From positions 1 to 41,794 of the forward strand of contig CAJCIN010000123.1 of NCBI GenBank assembly GCA_903970385.1: 41,794 nucleotides of DNA, given 5' to 3'. This document shows, one piece after another, positions 30,710 to 36,341 of this stretch. The translations under genes were made by a program, and so were the position numbers. Position 1 is the first letter of the stretch. Each line of letters opens with the position of its first letter. The notes under the pieces are model-generated. The model did not search any database. It was not told where the DNA came from and worked only from the letters and a program-made list of their open reading frames with translations. This DNA is from Rhodospirillales bacterium (GTDB lineage: Bacteria > Vulcanimicrobiota > Vulcanimicrobiia > Vulcanimicrobiales > Vulcanimicrobiaceae).

Positions 30710-31366
30710 GTGAAGCGAGTCATTGGGCTTGTTTTTATTCTTGGGGCGGCTTCCTGTGTGTCCGCTTCCGCTTCGAGCGCGCATCATGCTGCGGCATCTT
30801 CGCCGCGCCCGTCGGCGAAAACCATCGCGGCCCGTCAAGCGGCCGCGATCGCGTTGCTCGCCCCGGCGGACGAATATTTCGGTCCGCTCAAGCTGAGCAT
30901 CCTCGGCATTCGCAACACGATCCACGATCTCGGCGCGCGCTACGACGTCAATCATGCGATCTGGCATCAGACGTATTCGTCGGCGCAGCTCACGGAGCGC
31001 GCGATCCACGATTGGGAGAAGCGCTATCCGCACGACGGCCAGGTGCCGAAGGCGATCTATCTGATCCAGCGCCTGTACACCAAGGTGTTGTCGCAAGAAG
31101 CGCGCGACCGTGCGAACTACACCGCGAAGTGGATGTTTGCTGATTACGCGCAGTCGCCGCAAGGCCGGCAACTGAAGAAGACGCTCGCCGTCGAACACCT
31201 CGCCCCGCTGCCAGCGCTCCAGGATGCCGCACCGGCGAGTGCCGCTCCCGCTTATCCGTCGGAGTTCGGCCCGAACTACAAGTCCGACTTCGGTACGCCC
31301 GCAACGTCGCCGTCGGCCGCGCCCGCCGGGCCGGCGACGTCGCCCGCGCCGGCATCGGGCTCGTAA
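30710..31366 (+). CDS. Secreted protein with helical core and Pro/Ala tail, unknown function
   Basis: A 218-residue protein. The GTG start gives a signal peptide (VIGLVFILGAASCVSASASSA); a Cys in GAASCVS could be a weak lipobox. The mature core of about 130 residues is helical and aromatic-rich (SILGIRNTIHDLGARYDVNH, YLIQRLYTKVL). The tail of about 50 residues is Pro/Ala/Ser-rich. No family is recognised. It is a single-gene unit: divergent from the nitrilase and followed by a strong terminator. Confidence 0.7.
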   Translation: MKRVIGLVFILGAASCVSASASSAHHAAASSPRPSAKTIAARQAAAIALLAPADEYFGPLKLSILGIRNTIHDLGARYDVNHAIWHQTYSSAQLTERAIHDWEKRYPHDGQVPKAIYLIQRLYTKVLSQEARDRANYTAKWMFADYAQSPQGRQLKKTLAVEHLAPLPALQDAAPASAAPAYPSEFGPNYKSDFGTPATSPSAAPAGPATSPAPASGS

Positions 31367-31453: not shown

Positions 31454-31483
31454 AAAAGCCCCCCGCCGAAGCGAGGGGCTTTT
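31454..31483 (-). terminator. Bidirectional intrinsic terminator
   Basis: AAAAGCCCC and GGGGCTTTT form a 9-base stem with T runs on both strands. Read leftward the stem is followed by TTTTT, so it terminates the stalk/beta-barrel gene; it can also back up the plus-strand terminator just before it. Confidence 0.88.
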
Positions 31484-31519: not shown

Positions 31520-32884
31520 TTAGAAGTGGAGGCCGAGTCCGCCGTAGAGGCTGTTCTCCGTGAAGTTGGTCGGCGCGTTCTGCTTCGCGATACCGCGGTT
31601 ACCGAGGTAACCGAAGTCTAGGAAGATCGGCGTCTTCGGCAGGTTCAGCGTGATACCGGCCTGGTACTTGAGGTACCGGTACTGCAGCTTCTGGTCGTTT
31701 CCGAAGATGTCGACGTAGTCGCCACTGATCTGCGGGTAGTACAGGATGCTGCCGTAGATGTCGATCGGCTGCTCGAAGTTCGAGAGCTTCTCGAGACCGC
31801 CACCGATGCCCGTGAGGCGCGGGTAGCCGTAGTTGCCATAGCGATCCTCATAGCTTCCGACGAGGAAGATCTTCGGATTCGCGATGCCGATGCCGACGCG
31901 ACCATCGAGGTCGGTGTCGCGGGCATCGAACGAGTTCACGAACGACGAACCGGACGCCGGTCCGAGGGTCGTGACGCAGCCCGGATCGCCGGTTCCGGCG
32001 AGTTGACCGCCGACGCCGCACACGGGCGCTCCGTTGAGGCCGGTGTTGGCGTTGGAGCCGAGCGCCGGGCTACCGTCGAAGGCGGGATTGCCGCGATGCG
32101 GGTAGCGGAAGTACGCGTAGTTCGCTTCAGCCATCAACGCGACGTTGGCGAAGCTGAAGGTCGCTCCGGCGCGAGCCGCACCGGAGACGGCGCCCTTGTT
32201 ACCAGGGCTGAACTCGTTGTACGTCTTCGGGTCGAACAGCGCGTCGCCGGCGACGAAGAACTGCGCACCCTGGGTCTTGACGGGGGTCGGCGTCGGCGTT
32301 GCCGTCGGCGCGGGCGTCGGGGTCGGGGTCGGCGGGACGGGGGTCGCCGTCGCCGGAGCAGCGGTCGGCGGGGGCAAGTAACGCACCACGACGACGCGCT
32401 TGTCGGGAACCCACTGAACGTAGGCGCCGAGCGCTTCGGAGATCACGCGGACCGGGACGACGACCGAACCCTTGTAGATTTCGGGAGGGACGTCGAGCGG
32501 GCGCGTTTCGCCGTTGAGGATGACCTCGGGCTTACCGACCGTTACTTGAACGTCGGCGCCGGGCTTGGAAACGTCGACGGTCTTCGTCGACGCGTTGTAC
32601 GAGACCGTGGCTCCGCCCATTTGCTCGAACATCGAACGCAACGGAACAAGGATCGTCTTCCCGCGTACCAAAGCGGCCAGGACACGACCTTTTTTCAAGC
32701 GATCGGGTTTCGAGTAGACGTGCTGGTCATTGAAAAGGATCGGGACTTCACCGGACGGCGGGGCGCCGAAATTGGGGCCTGCCATCTGAGCGGACGCCGG
32801 CGCGAACGCCGCGGCCGCAAAGCCGACGATCCCGAACGCGATTGTCGCCATTATGACGAACGCCCGCGAAACGAGTCGTTTCAC
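31520..32884 (-). CDS. Stalk-domain (copper amine oxidase N-type) / outer-membrane beta-barrel fusion protein
   Basis: A 454-residue envelope protein. A signal peptide covers about residues 1-33. Residues about 45-165 form a copper-amine-oxidase-N-like stalk domain (GKTILVPLRSMFEQMGGATV; GSVVVPVRVISEALGAYVQW), a fold usually found in surface proteins. A Pro/Thr linker with repeated TPTP units (about 172-200) follows. The C-terminal 245 residues look like an outer-membrane beta-barrel with alternating strands, ending in SLYGGLGLHF, the aromatic end used for barrel insertion. The stalk may bind peptidoglycan or other wall material and tether the outer membrane; this is inference. The GTG start has AGGAGG eight bases upstream. 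Confidence 0.78.
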   Translation of the reverse strand: MKRLVSRAFVIMATIAFGIVGFAAAAFAPASAQMAGPNFGAPPSGEVPILFNDQHVYSKPDRLKKGRVLAALVRGKTILVPLRSMFEQMGGATVSYNASTKTVDVSKPGADVQVTVGKPEVILNGETRPLDVPPEIYKGSVVVPVRVISEALGAYVQWVPDKRVVVVRYLPPPTAAPATATPVPPTPTPTPAPTATPTPTPVKTQGAQFFVAGDALFDPKTYNEFSPGNKGAVSGAARAGATFSFANVALMAEANYAYFRYPHRGNPAFDGSPALGSNANTGLNGAPVCGVGGQLAGTGDPGCVTTLGPASGSSFVNSFDARDTDLDGRVGIGIANPKIFLVGSYEDRYGNYGYPRLTGIGGGLEKLSNFEQPIDIYGSILYYPQISGDYVDIFGNDQKLQYRYLKYQAGITLNLPKTPIFLDFGYLGNRGIAKQNAPTNFTENSLYGGLGLHF

Positions 32885-33002
32885 TAAGAGTGCCTCCTAA
32901 AGATGTGGTTTGGAGCCTTCTGGGACTTCCCCGGTAACTCAGAACGGGCCTTACCCGTTCCCTTCGGGACCGAAACCGGCCCAAAGTGCTTCTAATCGAA
33001 GT
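32885..33002. promoter_or_regulatory. Structured divergent region between barrel gene and desaturase gene
   Basis: This 118-base region holds several inverted repeats. AACGGG and CCCGTT pair around a five-base loop, CCC/GGG pairs around TT, and GGGCC pairs with GGCCC around both. Read leftward it forms a folded 5' leader for the barrel gene ending in AGGAGG. At the other end CTAATC (32992-32997) and GATTAG (33005-33010) flank the desaturase GTG start. It matches no riboswitch consensus I know. Operator, RNA regulator or both are possible. Confidence 0.45.
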
Positions 33003-34478: not shown

Positions 34479-34874
34479 CTAGGTCAGCTTCTCTTCGAGG
34501 TTGGCGATGAAGCGCGACTTCTCGATCACGTATCGCTCGTGCGTCCCCTCGGCAACTTTCTCGCGCTCGTCGAAGGCCGCGACCGCGAAGTTCACGCGTC
34601 GACCGTCGACGCCGATCACTTCGACTTCGGTGCGGACGATGAAGCCGACGGGGGTCGGTGCCAGATGCGTCAACTCGACGTATGAACCGAGCGTCACTTC
34701 GTCGGCGCCGAGAACCGGTGCGAGGCACGCGACCGCGGCGTCCTCGATCAATTGCAGCAACATCGGCGTCGAGAGAACGTCGACGCCTTTGTTCCCGGCT
34801 TTCTCCGCGGTCATCCATTCTTCGACGCGAGTTTGGCTCTGATAGGTTCGACCGATGTCGACTTTGGCGGCCAT
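34479..34874 (-). CDS. Hotdog-fold thioesterase (fluoroacetyl-CoA thioesterase-like)
   Basis: A 131-residue single hotdog domain. The segment STPMLLQLIEDAAVACLAPVL and the following TLGSYVELTHLAPTPVG are typical of the FlK-like thioesterase group, with Glu and His in the usual active positions. Such enzymes hydrolyse acyl-CoA; the acyl group here is unknown. It converges on the desaturase gene, with seven bases between the stops. Confidence 0.82.
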   Translation of the reverse strand: MAAKVDIGRTYQSQTRVEEWMTAEKAGNKGVDVLSTPMLLQLIEDAAVACLAPVLGADEVTLGSYVELTHLAPTPVGFIVRTEVEVIGVDGRRVNFAVAAFDEREKVAEGTHERYVIEKSRFIANLEEKLT

Positions 34875-34963
34875 GAAGAGACCTCTTATCTCGGAGGTCG
34901 CGCCGCTCCCTGTGAAGCGCGTGAATCATTTTCGCAGCGGAGGGCGTATGTAGCACGGCAACC

Positions 34964-34978
34964 ACTCTTGCGAAGAGT
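34964..34978. promoter_or_regulatory. Short hairpin upstream of the efflux adaptor gene
   Basis: ACTCTT and AAGAGT form a perfect 6-base stem around GCG, 22 bases before the adaptor's ATG. It may be an operator half-site pair or leader hairpin. A second symmetry, GACCTC and GAGGTC (34880-34885 and 34894-34899), lies at the other end of this 126-base intergenic region. Confidence 0.3.
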
Positions 34979-35000
34979 TCGAGGGAGTTCGAGGAGATCT

Positions 35001-36341
35001 ATGAAGGTTCGTGCGTTCGCTATTATCGCGATCGTGACGCTCGGTACGGCCGCGTGCGGCGGCGGCGCGAAGAAGCAGCAGGGGCCTCCTCCGCTCGCGG
35101 TCGACGTCACCAAGGCGCATCGTCAGGACATCTCGACGTCGATAACGCTCGACGGACAGGTCGTCCCGCTGTACCAGTCGACGCTCAGCACGCCGGAATC
35201 CGGCACCGTCTCGCAAGTCCTCGTCAACGAAGGCGATCGCGTGACGAAGGGGCAGTTGCTCGCGCAACTCGACGCGTCGCAACTCGTCGCGCAACTCGCC
35301 GCGAACCAGGCGACGGCCGATCAATCCGAAGCGAAGCTGCGCGGATCGAACGTGCAGGCGCCGATCTCGTCGCAGCAATACAGTTCGGCCGTCTATCAGG
35401 CGCGTCAGACCCTTCAAGCCGCGCAGAACACCGTTCGAGTCGACGAAGCCGCACTGCGCAACGCACAGCTCGTGTACGACAGCAATCAGCAGCTCGTGAA
35501 GCAGGGGTACGTTTCCAAGACCGCCGCGGAACAGGCGAATGCGTCGTACGTGTCGGCCCAACAGGCGCTCGCGAGCGCGCGACAGGCGGTTCCCGCGGCA
35601 CAAGCCGCGCTGAACACCGCGCTGAAGAACACGCAACAGACGCAAGTGGATCAGACGACGATCCAACAGAACAAGGCCGAACTCGAGCAGGCGCGGGCGA
35701 ACGTGAAGCTGCTGCAAGTGCAGATCGCGCAGTCGTCGATCTACGCGCCGTTCGACGGGACCGTCACGCAGCGGCTGCTCGATCCGGGCGCGTACGCCGG
35801 GCCGAATCAGGCGATCGTGCAAGTGTCGCACATCGATCAGGTCTACATCAACGCGAACGTGCCGGACGAGAGCCTCGCCTACGTGCAAGCGAATACGCCC
35901 GTGCGCTTCACCTCGCAGAGCGTGCCCGGTCACGTGTTCACGGGACGGATCTTCGACGTGAACGCGACGCCGACGAGCGGAACGCTCTCGTACCGCGCGC
36001 GCGTCCGCTACGAAAACGGCGGCGACGTGCTGCGCGGCGGGATGCTGGTCTCGTTGATCGTACAGAAAGAACGCCATCCGGACGCGATCGTCGTGCCGCG
36101 GACGGCGGTCTTCCAAAGCGATCAAGGAGCGAACGTGTATACCGTCGGCGACGATAACAAAGCGAAGATGATCCCCGTGCAGATCGGGCTCGAAACCGAC
36201 ACGCTCGCGGAAGTGAAGAGTGCCGACGTGCATCCCGGCACCGTCGTGATCACGACGCGGCCGGACGCGTTGCAAGACGGCAGCGTCGTCGCCGTGAGCG
36301 GCTCGGCGCCGCACGGCGCGGCCCCCGGAGCCTCGCACTAG
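35001..36341 (+). CDS. Periplasmic adaptor (membrane fusion) lipoprotein, RND/MacA type
   Basis: A 446-residue lipoprotein; the lipobox is LGTAAC, with the signal MKVRAFAIIAIVTLG. A lipoyl half-domain (GTVSQVLVNEGDRVTKGQLL) is followed by a long coiled-coil hairpin of Gln/Ala/Asn-rich heptads (about residues 100-235). The second lipoyl half is SIYAPFDGTVTQRLLDPGAY, then beta-barrel and membrane-proximal domains. It would link an inner-membrane pump to a TolC-like channel. Start at ATG 35001, with GAGGAG upstream. The stop shares one base with the next start. Confidence 0.9.
   Translation: MKVRAFAIIAIVTLGTAACGGGAKKQQGPPPLAVDVTKAHRQDISTSITLDGQVVPLYQSTLSTPESGTVSQVLVNEGDRVTKGQLLAQLDASQLVAQLAANQATADQSEAKLRGSNVQAPISSQQYSSAVYQARQTLQAAQNTVRVDEAALRNAQLVYDSNQQLVKQGYVSKTAAEQANASYVSAQQALASARQAVPAAQAALNTALKNTQQTQVDQTTIQQNKAELEQARANVKLLQVQIAQSSIYAPFDGTVTQRLLDPGAYAGPNQAIVQVSHIDQVYINANVPDESLAYVQANTPVRFTSQSVPGHVFTGRIFDVNATPTSGTLSYRARVRYENGGDVLRGGMLVSLIVQKERHPDAIVVPRTAVFQSDQGANVYTVGDDNKAKMIPVQIGLETDTLAEVKSADVHPGTVVITTRPDALQDGSVVAVSGSAPHGAAPGASH

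Follow-up and report, generated by a model that had tools for sequence, protein, structure and literature searches.

The window, the whole stretch of DNA analysed here, is a complete contig (C123) of 41,794 nucleotides from a genome of 3.26 Mb in 312 contigs. On its minus strand, at 31520..32884, lies a gene with a GTG start that encodes a protein of 454 amino acids and has its closest kin in Candidatus Eremiobacterota, the group in which the organism is placed. The open reading frame is genuine at these coordinates, judging from an AGGAGG ribosome-binding site on the same strand (32893..32898), 8 nt upstream of the GTG, and from 39 homologous loci found among the genome contigs, the majority of them full length. 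A terminator-like hairpin with a T run lies 3' of the gene (31458..31472, minus strand); the signal is weak, with 3 such hairpins found against 2.3 expected by shuffling. The NNC share at two-fold codons was 0.86 in this gene versus 0.89 in the short FlK gene, with lower values in the others, a comparison that we left unused because some of the comparison genes have doubtful starts. The first 33 or so residues (32786..32884, minus strand) read as a signal peptide of the Sec type with an AxA-like end. It has no lipobox cysteine, the sole two cysteines of the protein being residues 289 and 303.

An earlier note on this DNA had read the chain as a copper-amine-oxidase-N-like stalk, a Pro/Thr linker and a barrel with an aromatic end, and all three parts were recovered (all on the minus strand). 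The stalk module spans residues 36-170 (32375..32779) and includes an FGxPPSGxxPILxND extension ahead of a PF07833 Cu_amine_oxidN1 domain at residues 70-166 (32387..32677). This domain was matched both by Pfam (E 9.6e-26; 90.3 bits, with the cut-off at 24.2) and by structure: compared with domain 1 of the E. coli copper amine oxidase in VIA-align, the stalk gave a Z of 9.2 over 76 residues, with an rmsd of 2.0 and 25% identity. The Pro/Thr-rich linker covers about residues 171-203 (32276..32374), and residues 204-454 (31523..32275) form a predicted outer-membrane beta-barrel of 10 strands that ends in Phe454. The absence of a barrel from the C-terminal 245 residues had been named as evidence that would speak against the note; structure prediction placed one there.

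The prediction was made with AlphaFold2 on a 25-row alignment, and the full model has a mean pLDDT of 71.5 and a pTM of 0.52. It contains 10 long strands, at residues 208-222, 234-245, 248-263, 319-335, 339-350, 357-366, 374-391, 397-414, 420-433 and 441-453. Confidence within the barrel is mostly 85-95 and lower across the long loop that joins strand 3 to strand 4; it is mostly near 80 in the stalk, and mostly below 60 in the linker, which is predicted to be disordered. The top PDB matches in Foldseek were OpcA, OmpT and Pla, and VIA-align compared the barrel with OpcA (2vdf) at a Z of 19.1 over 202 residues (rmsd 3.8) and with the omptins OmpT and Pla at Z 16-17.5. Searches of the 454-residue protein against Pfam at E<=1 gave no match to the SLH domain (PF00395), the amine oxidase catalytic domain or the Omptin family, and the OmpA domain (PF00691) was likewise not found by Pfam. 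Omptin proteases have catalytic Asp and His residues; in a comparison made by alignment column only, no Asp-x-His pair was seen among the near-invariant columns of our barrel model. The VIA-align fold list for the stalk held no OmpA_C or SLH relation, which excludes neither.

In bacterial barrels, an even number of strands leaves both ends on the periplasmic side. The ten strands predicted here would therefore place the stalk, joined to the barrel by its flexible Pro/Thr linker, within the periplasm. From the same strand number and a periplasmic N-terminus, the long loop (residues 264-318, 31931..32095, minus strand), which contains both cysteines, would face outward. The presumed outer-face loops of the barrel keep the motifs NEFSPGN, NYGYP and NAP; given this conservation, the barrel may bind a surface ligand of its own.

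The surroundings of the gene were compared across the 39 homologous loci. A gene for an FlK-type thioesterase lies nearby in 19 of them, most of which also have HlyD/OEP and AsnC-like genes close at hand, and a CN-hydrolase gene occupies the opposite side in 13. In 15 loci, not one of the 12 tested window neighbours is present; these loci make up at least one second site. An adjoining FAD oxidoreductase, phytoene-desaturase-like by our reading of the Pfam result, was seen in two loci only (L017 and L049). The second of these is on a contig labelled Rhodospirillales, with a gene 71% identical to ours and with window neighbours; it is probably mislabelled or part of a mixed bin. Two further observations concern the plus strand of the window. 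A secreted protein of 218 amino acids (30710-31366) has no Pfam match and stands beside the gene in many relatives. At 34752-36341, the start of the open reading frame overlaps the FlK gene, and the HlyD gene probably begins near 35000.

To follow the protein through the phylum, all counts were made on one drawn set of 118 genomes, 86 of them from the class (families f1-f3) and 32 from elsewhere, using three models: A1 for the whole protein, A2 for the barrel and A3 for the stalk (134 columns). The barrel model matched 89 of the 118 genomes, comprising all 86 of the class and, weakly, 3 of the 32 others. By figures tallied by eye from the search tables, the stalk model matched 80 of the 86 class genomes at E<=1e-60 and 84 at E<=1e-30 (the two that scored worse being G038 and G105), and the best whole-protein match was below 1e-140 in 78. 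Of the remaining eight, G056 and G074 have full-length proteins, and in G068, G081, G101 and G038 the matches are either interrupted by the end of a contig or a gap, or divided between proteins; the A1 matches examined in G065 and G105 did not show the fusion. Outside the class, none of the 32 genomes reached E<=1e-30 with the stalk model; the best value was 5e-27, and eight genomes had no match at 1e-5. In the non-class matches inspected (L210, L212, L214 and L215), the general part of PF07833 belongs to other proteins, in which we saw no barrel.

Within the family, the two halves of the protein have diverged to very different degrees. Mean pairwise identity is 81% for the stalk versus 51% for the barrel, the stalk being the higher in 300 of 300 pairs, and the mean column identity of the stalk alignment is 85%. 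The stalk is thus, by alignment, far better conserved than the barrel, and the extension ahead of PF07833 serves as the mark of the stalk type. The earlier note had also called for a count of paralogues. The genome of the window has nine PF07833 matches, of which two are of the stalk type: the window gene itself and a copy cut by a contig end (C248).

The stalk and the barrel also occur apart from one another. The A2 barrel is found without a stalk at L150 and in the window's own genome, where one such copy has its own signal peptide (contig C72, L003:1384-2259). Conversely, among 104 distinct proteins with a full stalk, taken from loci recruited mostly through the stalk-barrel family so that the proportions are not a survey, 92 have the A2 barrel and 4 have something else; the remaining 8 are interrupted by the end of a contig or locus or by N. 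In three of these loci the stalk precedes a different barrel-like C-terminus: L277, where OMP_b-brl scored 2.6e-5, below the Pfam cut-off; L252, with no second Pfam match; and L206, which ends in Phe and also has no second match. In L277 and L206, as in the OprD-like L264 described below, a Pro linker accompanies the stalk. A further protein (L266:673-2025) combines a full stalk and a Pro linker with a C-terminal part in which neither a barrel nor a Pfam family is recognisable.

The clearest case is that of a porin. At L263 and L264 the contig starts inside the stalk, and a long porin follows; L264 matched OprD (PF03573) above the Pfam cut-off (E 8.5e-8), and L263 gave OprD at only 0.027. A search with this porin found OprD-like proteins of the L264 type in 52 of the 118 genomes. 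Thirty OprD-like loci were taken, of which 8 were stalked (L280 with the last part of the stalk only), 2 were cut at a contig start and 20 were stalkless. A tree built from 33 rows grouped the 8 stalked sequences with the 2 cut ones in one clade (100/99), all ten from genus g4, and left the 23 stalkless rows outside. One stalked clade among stalkless rows is most simply read as a single graft of the stalk onto a pre-existing porin. The stalk is therefore a portable module, set on several types of barrel including the unrelated OprD-like porin. The grafted porins of g4 include L281-L283, L285, L286, L288 and L294; the porins of the other genera are stalkless.

The stalk-barrel protein is not the sole candidate for a tether in this lineage, in which an SLH-barrel protein and OmpA-domain lipoproteins are also present. 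The former is encoded in the window's own genome (contig C137, L122:1313-3943) and consists of 877 residues with an SLH domain, an N-terminal helical part and a large predicted barrel. VIA-align related it to FimD and OprD-type barrels at Z of about 14-18 and to Veillonella OmpM1 at Z 14.7 (250 residues, rmsd 6.3, 16% identity), and its predicted structure is OmpM/SlpA-like. Full-length OmpM-like proteins were found in 24 of the 86 class genomes, that of the window included, together with one cut by a contig end; many other class genomes match only the final part of the OmpM-like barrel model. Ten loci (L136-L141, L143-L145 and L155) have short OmpM-like frames, 386-472 residues long, in which a separate signal peptide is present but SLH gave no match, and these ten class genomes with a shortened barrel have apparently lost the wall-binding part. 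Outside the class, SLH domains occur in 29 of 32 genomes, and at L059 and L061 they are combined with coiled-coil-like and barrel-like parts. An SLH lipoprotein of about 290 amino acids (L130:912-1781 and relatives), another possible wall binder, was seen in 21 of the 118 genomes.

OmpA domains are present in 53 of the 86 class genomes. We considered the domain as proof of a Pal or OmpA protein and rejected it: among 16 regions read, at least six were MotB (L156, L157, L166, L167, L168 and L171, named from sequence motifs rather than by Pfam) and at least three were lipoproteins. The lipoproteins, also named from motifs, are large and have the OmpA domain at the C-terminus (L158, L160 and L165). 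By genome lists transcribed by hand, 11 of the 86 class genomes have no match to SLH, the OmpA domain, a full OmpM-like protein or the SLH lipoprotein. All 11 have the barrel family and a stalk at E<=1e-60, and 6 of them belong to g4, the genus of the stalked OprD-like porins. Strict complementarity with the SLH-OmpM protein was also rejected, as the barrel family is present in all 24 genomes with a full-length OmpM-like protein. Copy number of the barrel family, again from hand-transcribed lists, did not rise where the full OmpM-like protein is absent (mean 3.17 with it versus 2.81 without, p 0.57). Copy number therefore speaks against simple compensation and lends no support to a simple swap.

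We propose that the stalk is a periplasmic anchor that turns barrels into tethers between the outer membrane and the wall, a reading with, in our estimate, a little better than an even chance of being right. Starting from the computed anatomy, we infer the periplasmic side, the binding to the wall and the tether function. After export by Sec, the C-terminal barrel with its Phe-ending strand would fold into the outer membrane, and the stalk would grip peptidoglycan or something fixed to peptidoglycan, so that the protein would tie the outer membrane to the wall, a task for which OmpM uses its SLH domain. By moving onto several barrel types, the OprD-like porin among them, the stalk would make tethers of transport barrels. 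A near-invariant stalk in the periplasm, attached to a diverging barrel and found on several barrels, argues for a common fixed partner. The wall would be the likeliest such partner, considering also that PF07833 is described in surface proteins, often together with wall-hydrolase domains (PMC4137172), and that a report on the Veillonella outer-membrane proteome includes a copper amine oxidase domain protein, Vpar_0136, of unclear localisation (PMC5491611). The group to which the organism belongs is described as diderm, with LPS and BamA (PMC6664022), and Vulcanimicrobium as having thin peptidoglycan beneath an LPS outer membrane (PMC9758169). In the literature searched, we found no description of peptidoglycan binding by a PF07833 domain. 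Several observations count against a tether: the 24 class genomes that already have a full-length SLH-barrel protein, the lack of any rise in barrel-family copy number in the genomes without one, the dimerisation of PaSOD through a domain assigned to PF07833 (PMC10432803), the stalk at L266 with no recognisable barrel, and the OmpA-domain lipoproteins, which could serve as tethers in some genomes. The same holds for the E. coli amine oxidase, in which a PF07833 domain is carried by a soluble enzyme.

The conservation of the stalk would also follow if the stalk bound itself or a protein. Stalk identity of 81% is as readily explained by a protein partner as by a polymer, and a conserved periplasmic or inner-membrane protein (a chaperone, an assembly factor, or an energy-transducing or wall-synthesis protein) could be bound in place of the wall itself. 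The HlyD/OEP efflux and thioesterase genes that often adjoin the gene would fit such a partner, but the neighbourhood differs at the second site, and no candidate partner was found; we regard this explanation as unlikely. Contact between stalks would equally preserve their sequence, with the stalk pairing or trimerising barrels and having no ligand in the wall, and the corresponding domain of the E. coli amine oxidase is part of a homodimer. Crystal structure likewise shows homodimerisation through the N-terminal domain of PaSOD that is assigned to PF07833; that domain, however, is described as only partly similar in fold to E. coli domain 1 (PMC10432803), which is the domain that our stalk matches. 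Moreover, the stalk hardly varies between barrels whose predicted sizes differ greatly, and a disordered Pro linker of 30-40 residues is ill-suited to fix the geometry between barrels, so that oligomerisation appears improbable to much the same degree.

Two other explanations fare considerably worse. An autotransporter has its passenger at the N-terminus and its barrel at the C-terminus, an order that the stalk-barrel protein shares, and the stalk might accordingly pass through the barrel for display at the cell surface. The autotransporter barrel, however, has 12 strands and a helix in its lumen, whereas 10 strands and no lumen helix are predicted here, and the linker is Pro-rich and disordered. 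Since the nearest solved barrels are also of the OpcA and OmpT types, and the stalk occurs on an OprD-like porin, a barrel outside the autotransporter types, we hold surface display to be very improbable. It would be just as surprising if the stalk bound no ligand and served only as a passive spacer or for stability, since such a part would need neither conservation far above that of the barrel nor a class-specific N-terminal extension. In the E. coli amine oxidase, domain 1 does lie outside the catalytic core, as a mere spacer might. PaSOD, too, is reported to be less stable to heat when it lacks the domain assigned to PF07833 (PMC10432803).

The mode of outer-membrane attachment is described as splitting the bacteria, with Pal in Gracilicutes and OmpM in most diderm Terrabacteria (PMC10628300). 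A lineage that has an outer membrane, an OmpM-like protein that is often without SLH, and an unrelated stalk on several barrels would show how one tether can give way to another, a matter relevant to the retention or loss of outer membranes. PF07833 is moreover a common domain of unsettled function, and the stalk offers a concrete test of its ligand. More specifically, a separate tether built on the copper-amine-oxidase-N stalk may exist nearly class-wide, accompanying or replacing an OmpM that is often SLH-less and shortened, with grafts making tethers of transport barrels such as the OprD-like porins of g4; we consider this fuller scenario possible, at somewhat less than an even chance.

OmpA, OmpM and SlpA already provide examples of a barrel combined with a periplasmic domain that binds the wall. 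The earlier note had likened the protein in function to an OmpA-type tether, and its reading of the domains stands. OmpA, too, has a barrel joined to a periplasmic domain by a linker, but in our protein the order of the domains is reversed, the barrel is a different one and PF00691 is missing. The nearer analogue is OmpM, which in Veillonella and the diderm Terrabacteria is described as tether and nutrient channel in one protein, with an N-terminal periplasmic binding domain, a linker, a C-terminal barrel and multiple paralogues (PMC10628300), as in our protein. Unlike OmpM, which has SLH and a coiled coil, the stalk-barrel protein has PF07833 and a disordered Pro/Thr linker, and its 10-strand OpcA/OmpT-type barrel differs from the OmpM porin, the OmpM-like protein being encoded by a separate gene of the same genome. 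Deinococcus SlpA is built of an SLH domain, a long coiled coil and a C-terminal barrel. It resembles the stalk-barrel protein in its C-terminal barrel and differs from it in the SLH domain and long coiled coil; the SLH protein of the window's own genome is nearer to this architecture. SlpA is reported to connect the outer membrane and the cell wall (PMC9388160). Of the two parts of the chain, the stalk shares its fold with domain 1 of copper amine oxidases but comes without their catalytic domain, and the barrel has the 10-strand fold common to OpcA and the omptins OmpT and Pla (Z 16-19, about 10% identity) but bears a periplasmic stalk and has no Omptin match in Pfam. Without SLH, coiled coil or PF00691, the protein would work like OmpM or OmpA, if at all, without belonging to either family. 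We found no description of a PF07833 barrel tether in the literature searched, and the presence of one stalk on unrelated barrels suggests that the outer membrane is secured to the wall in a manner not described so far.
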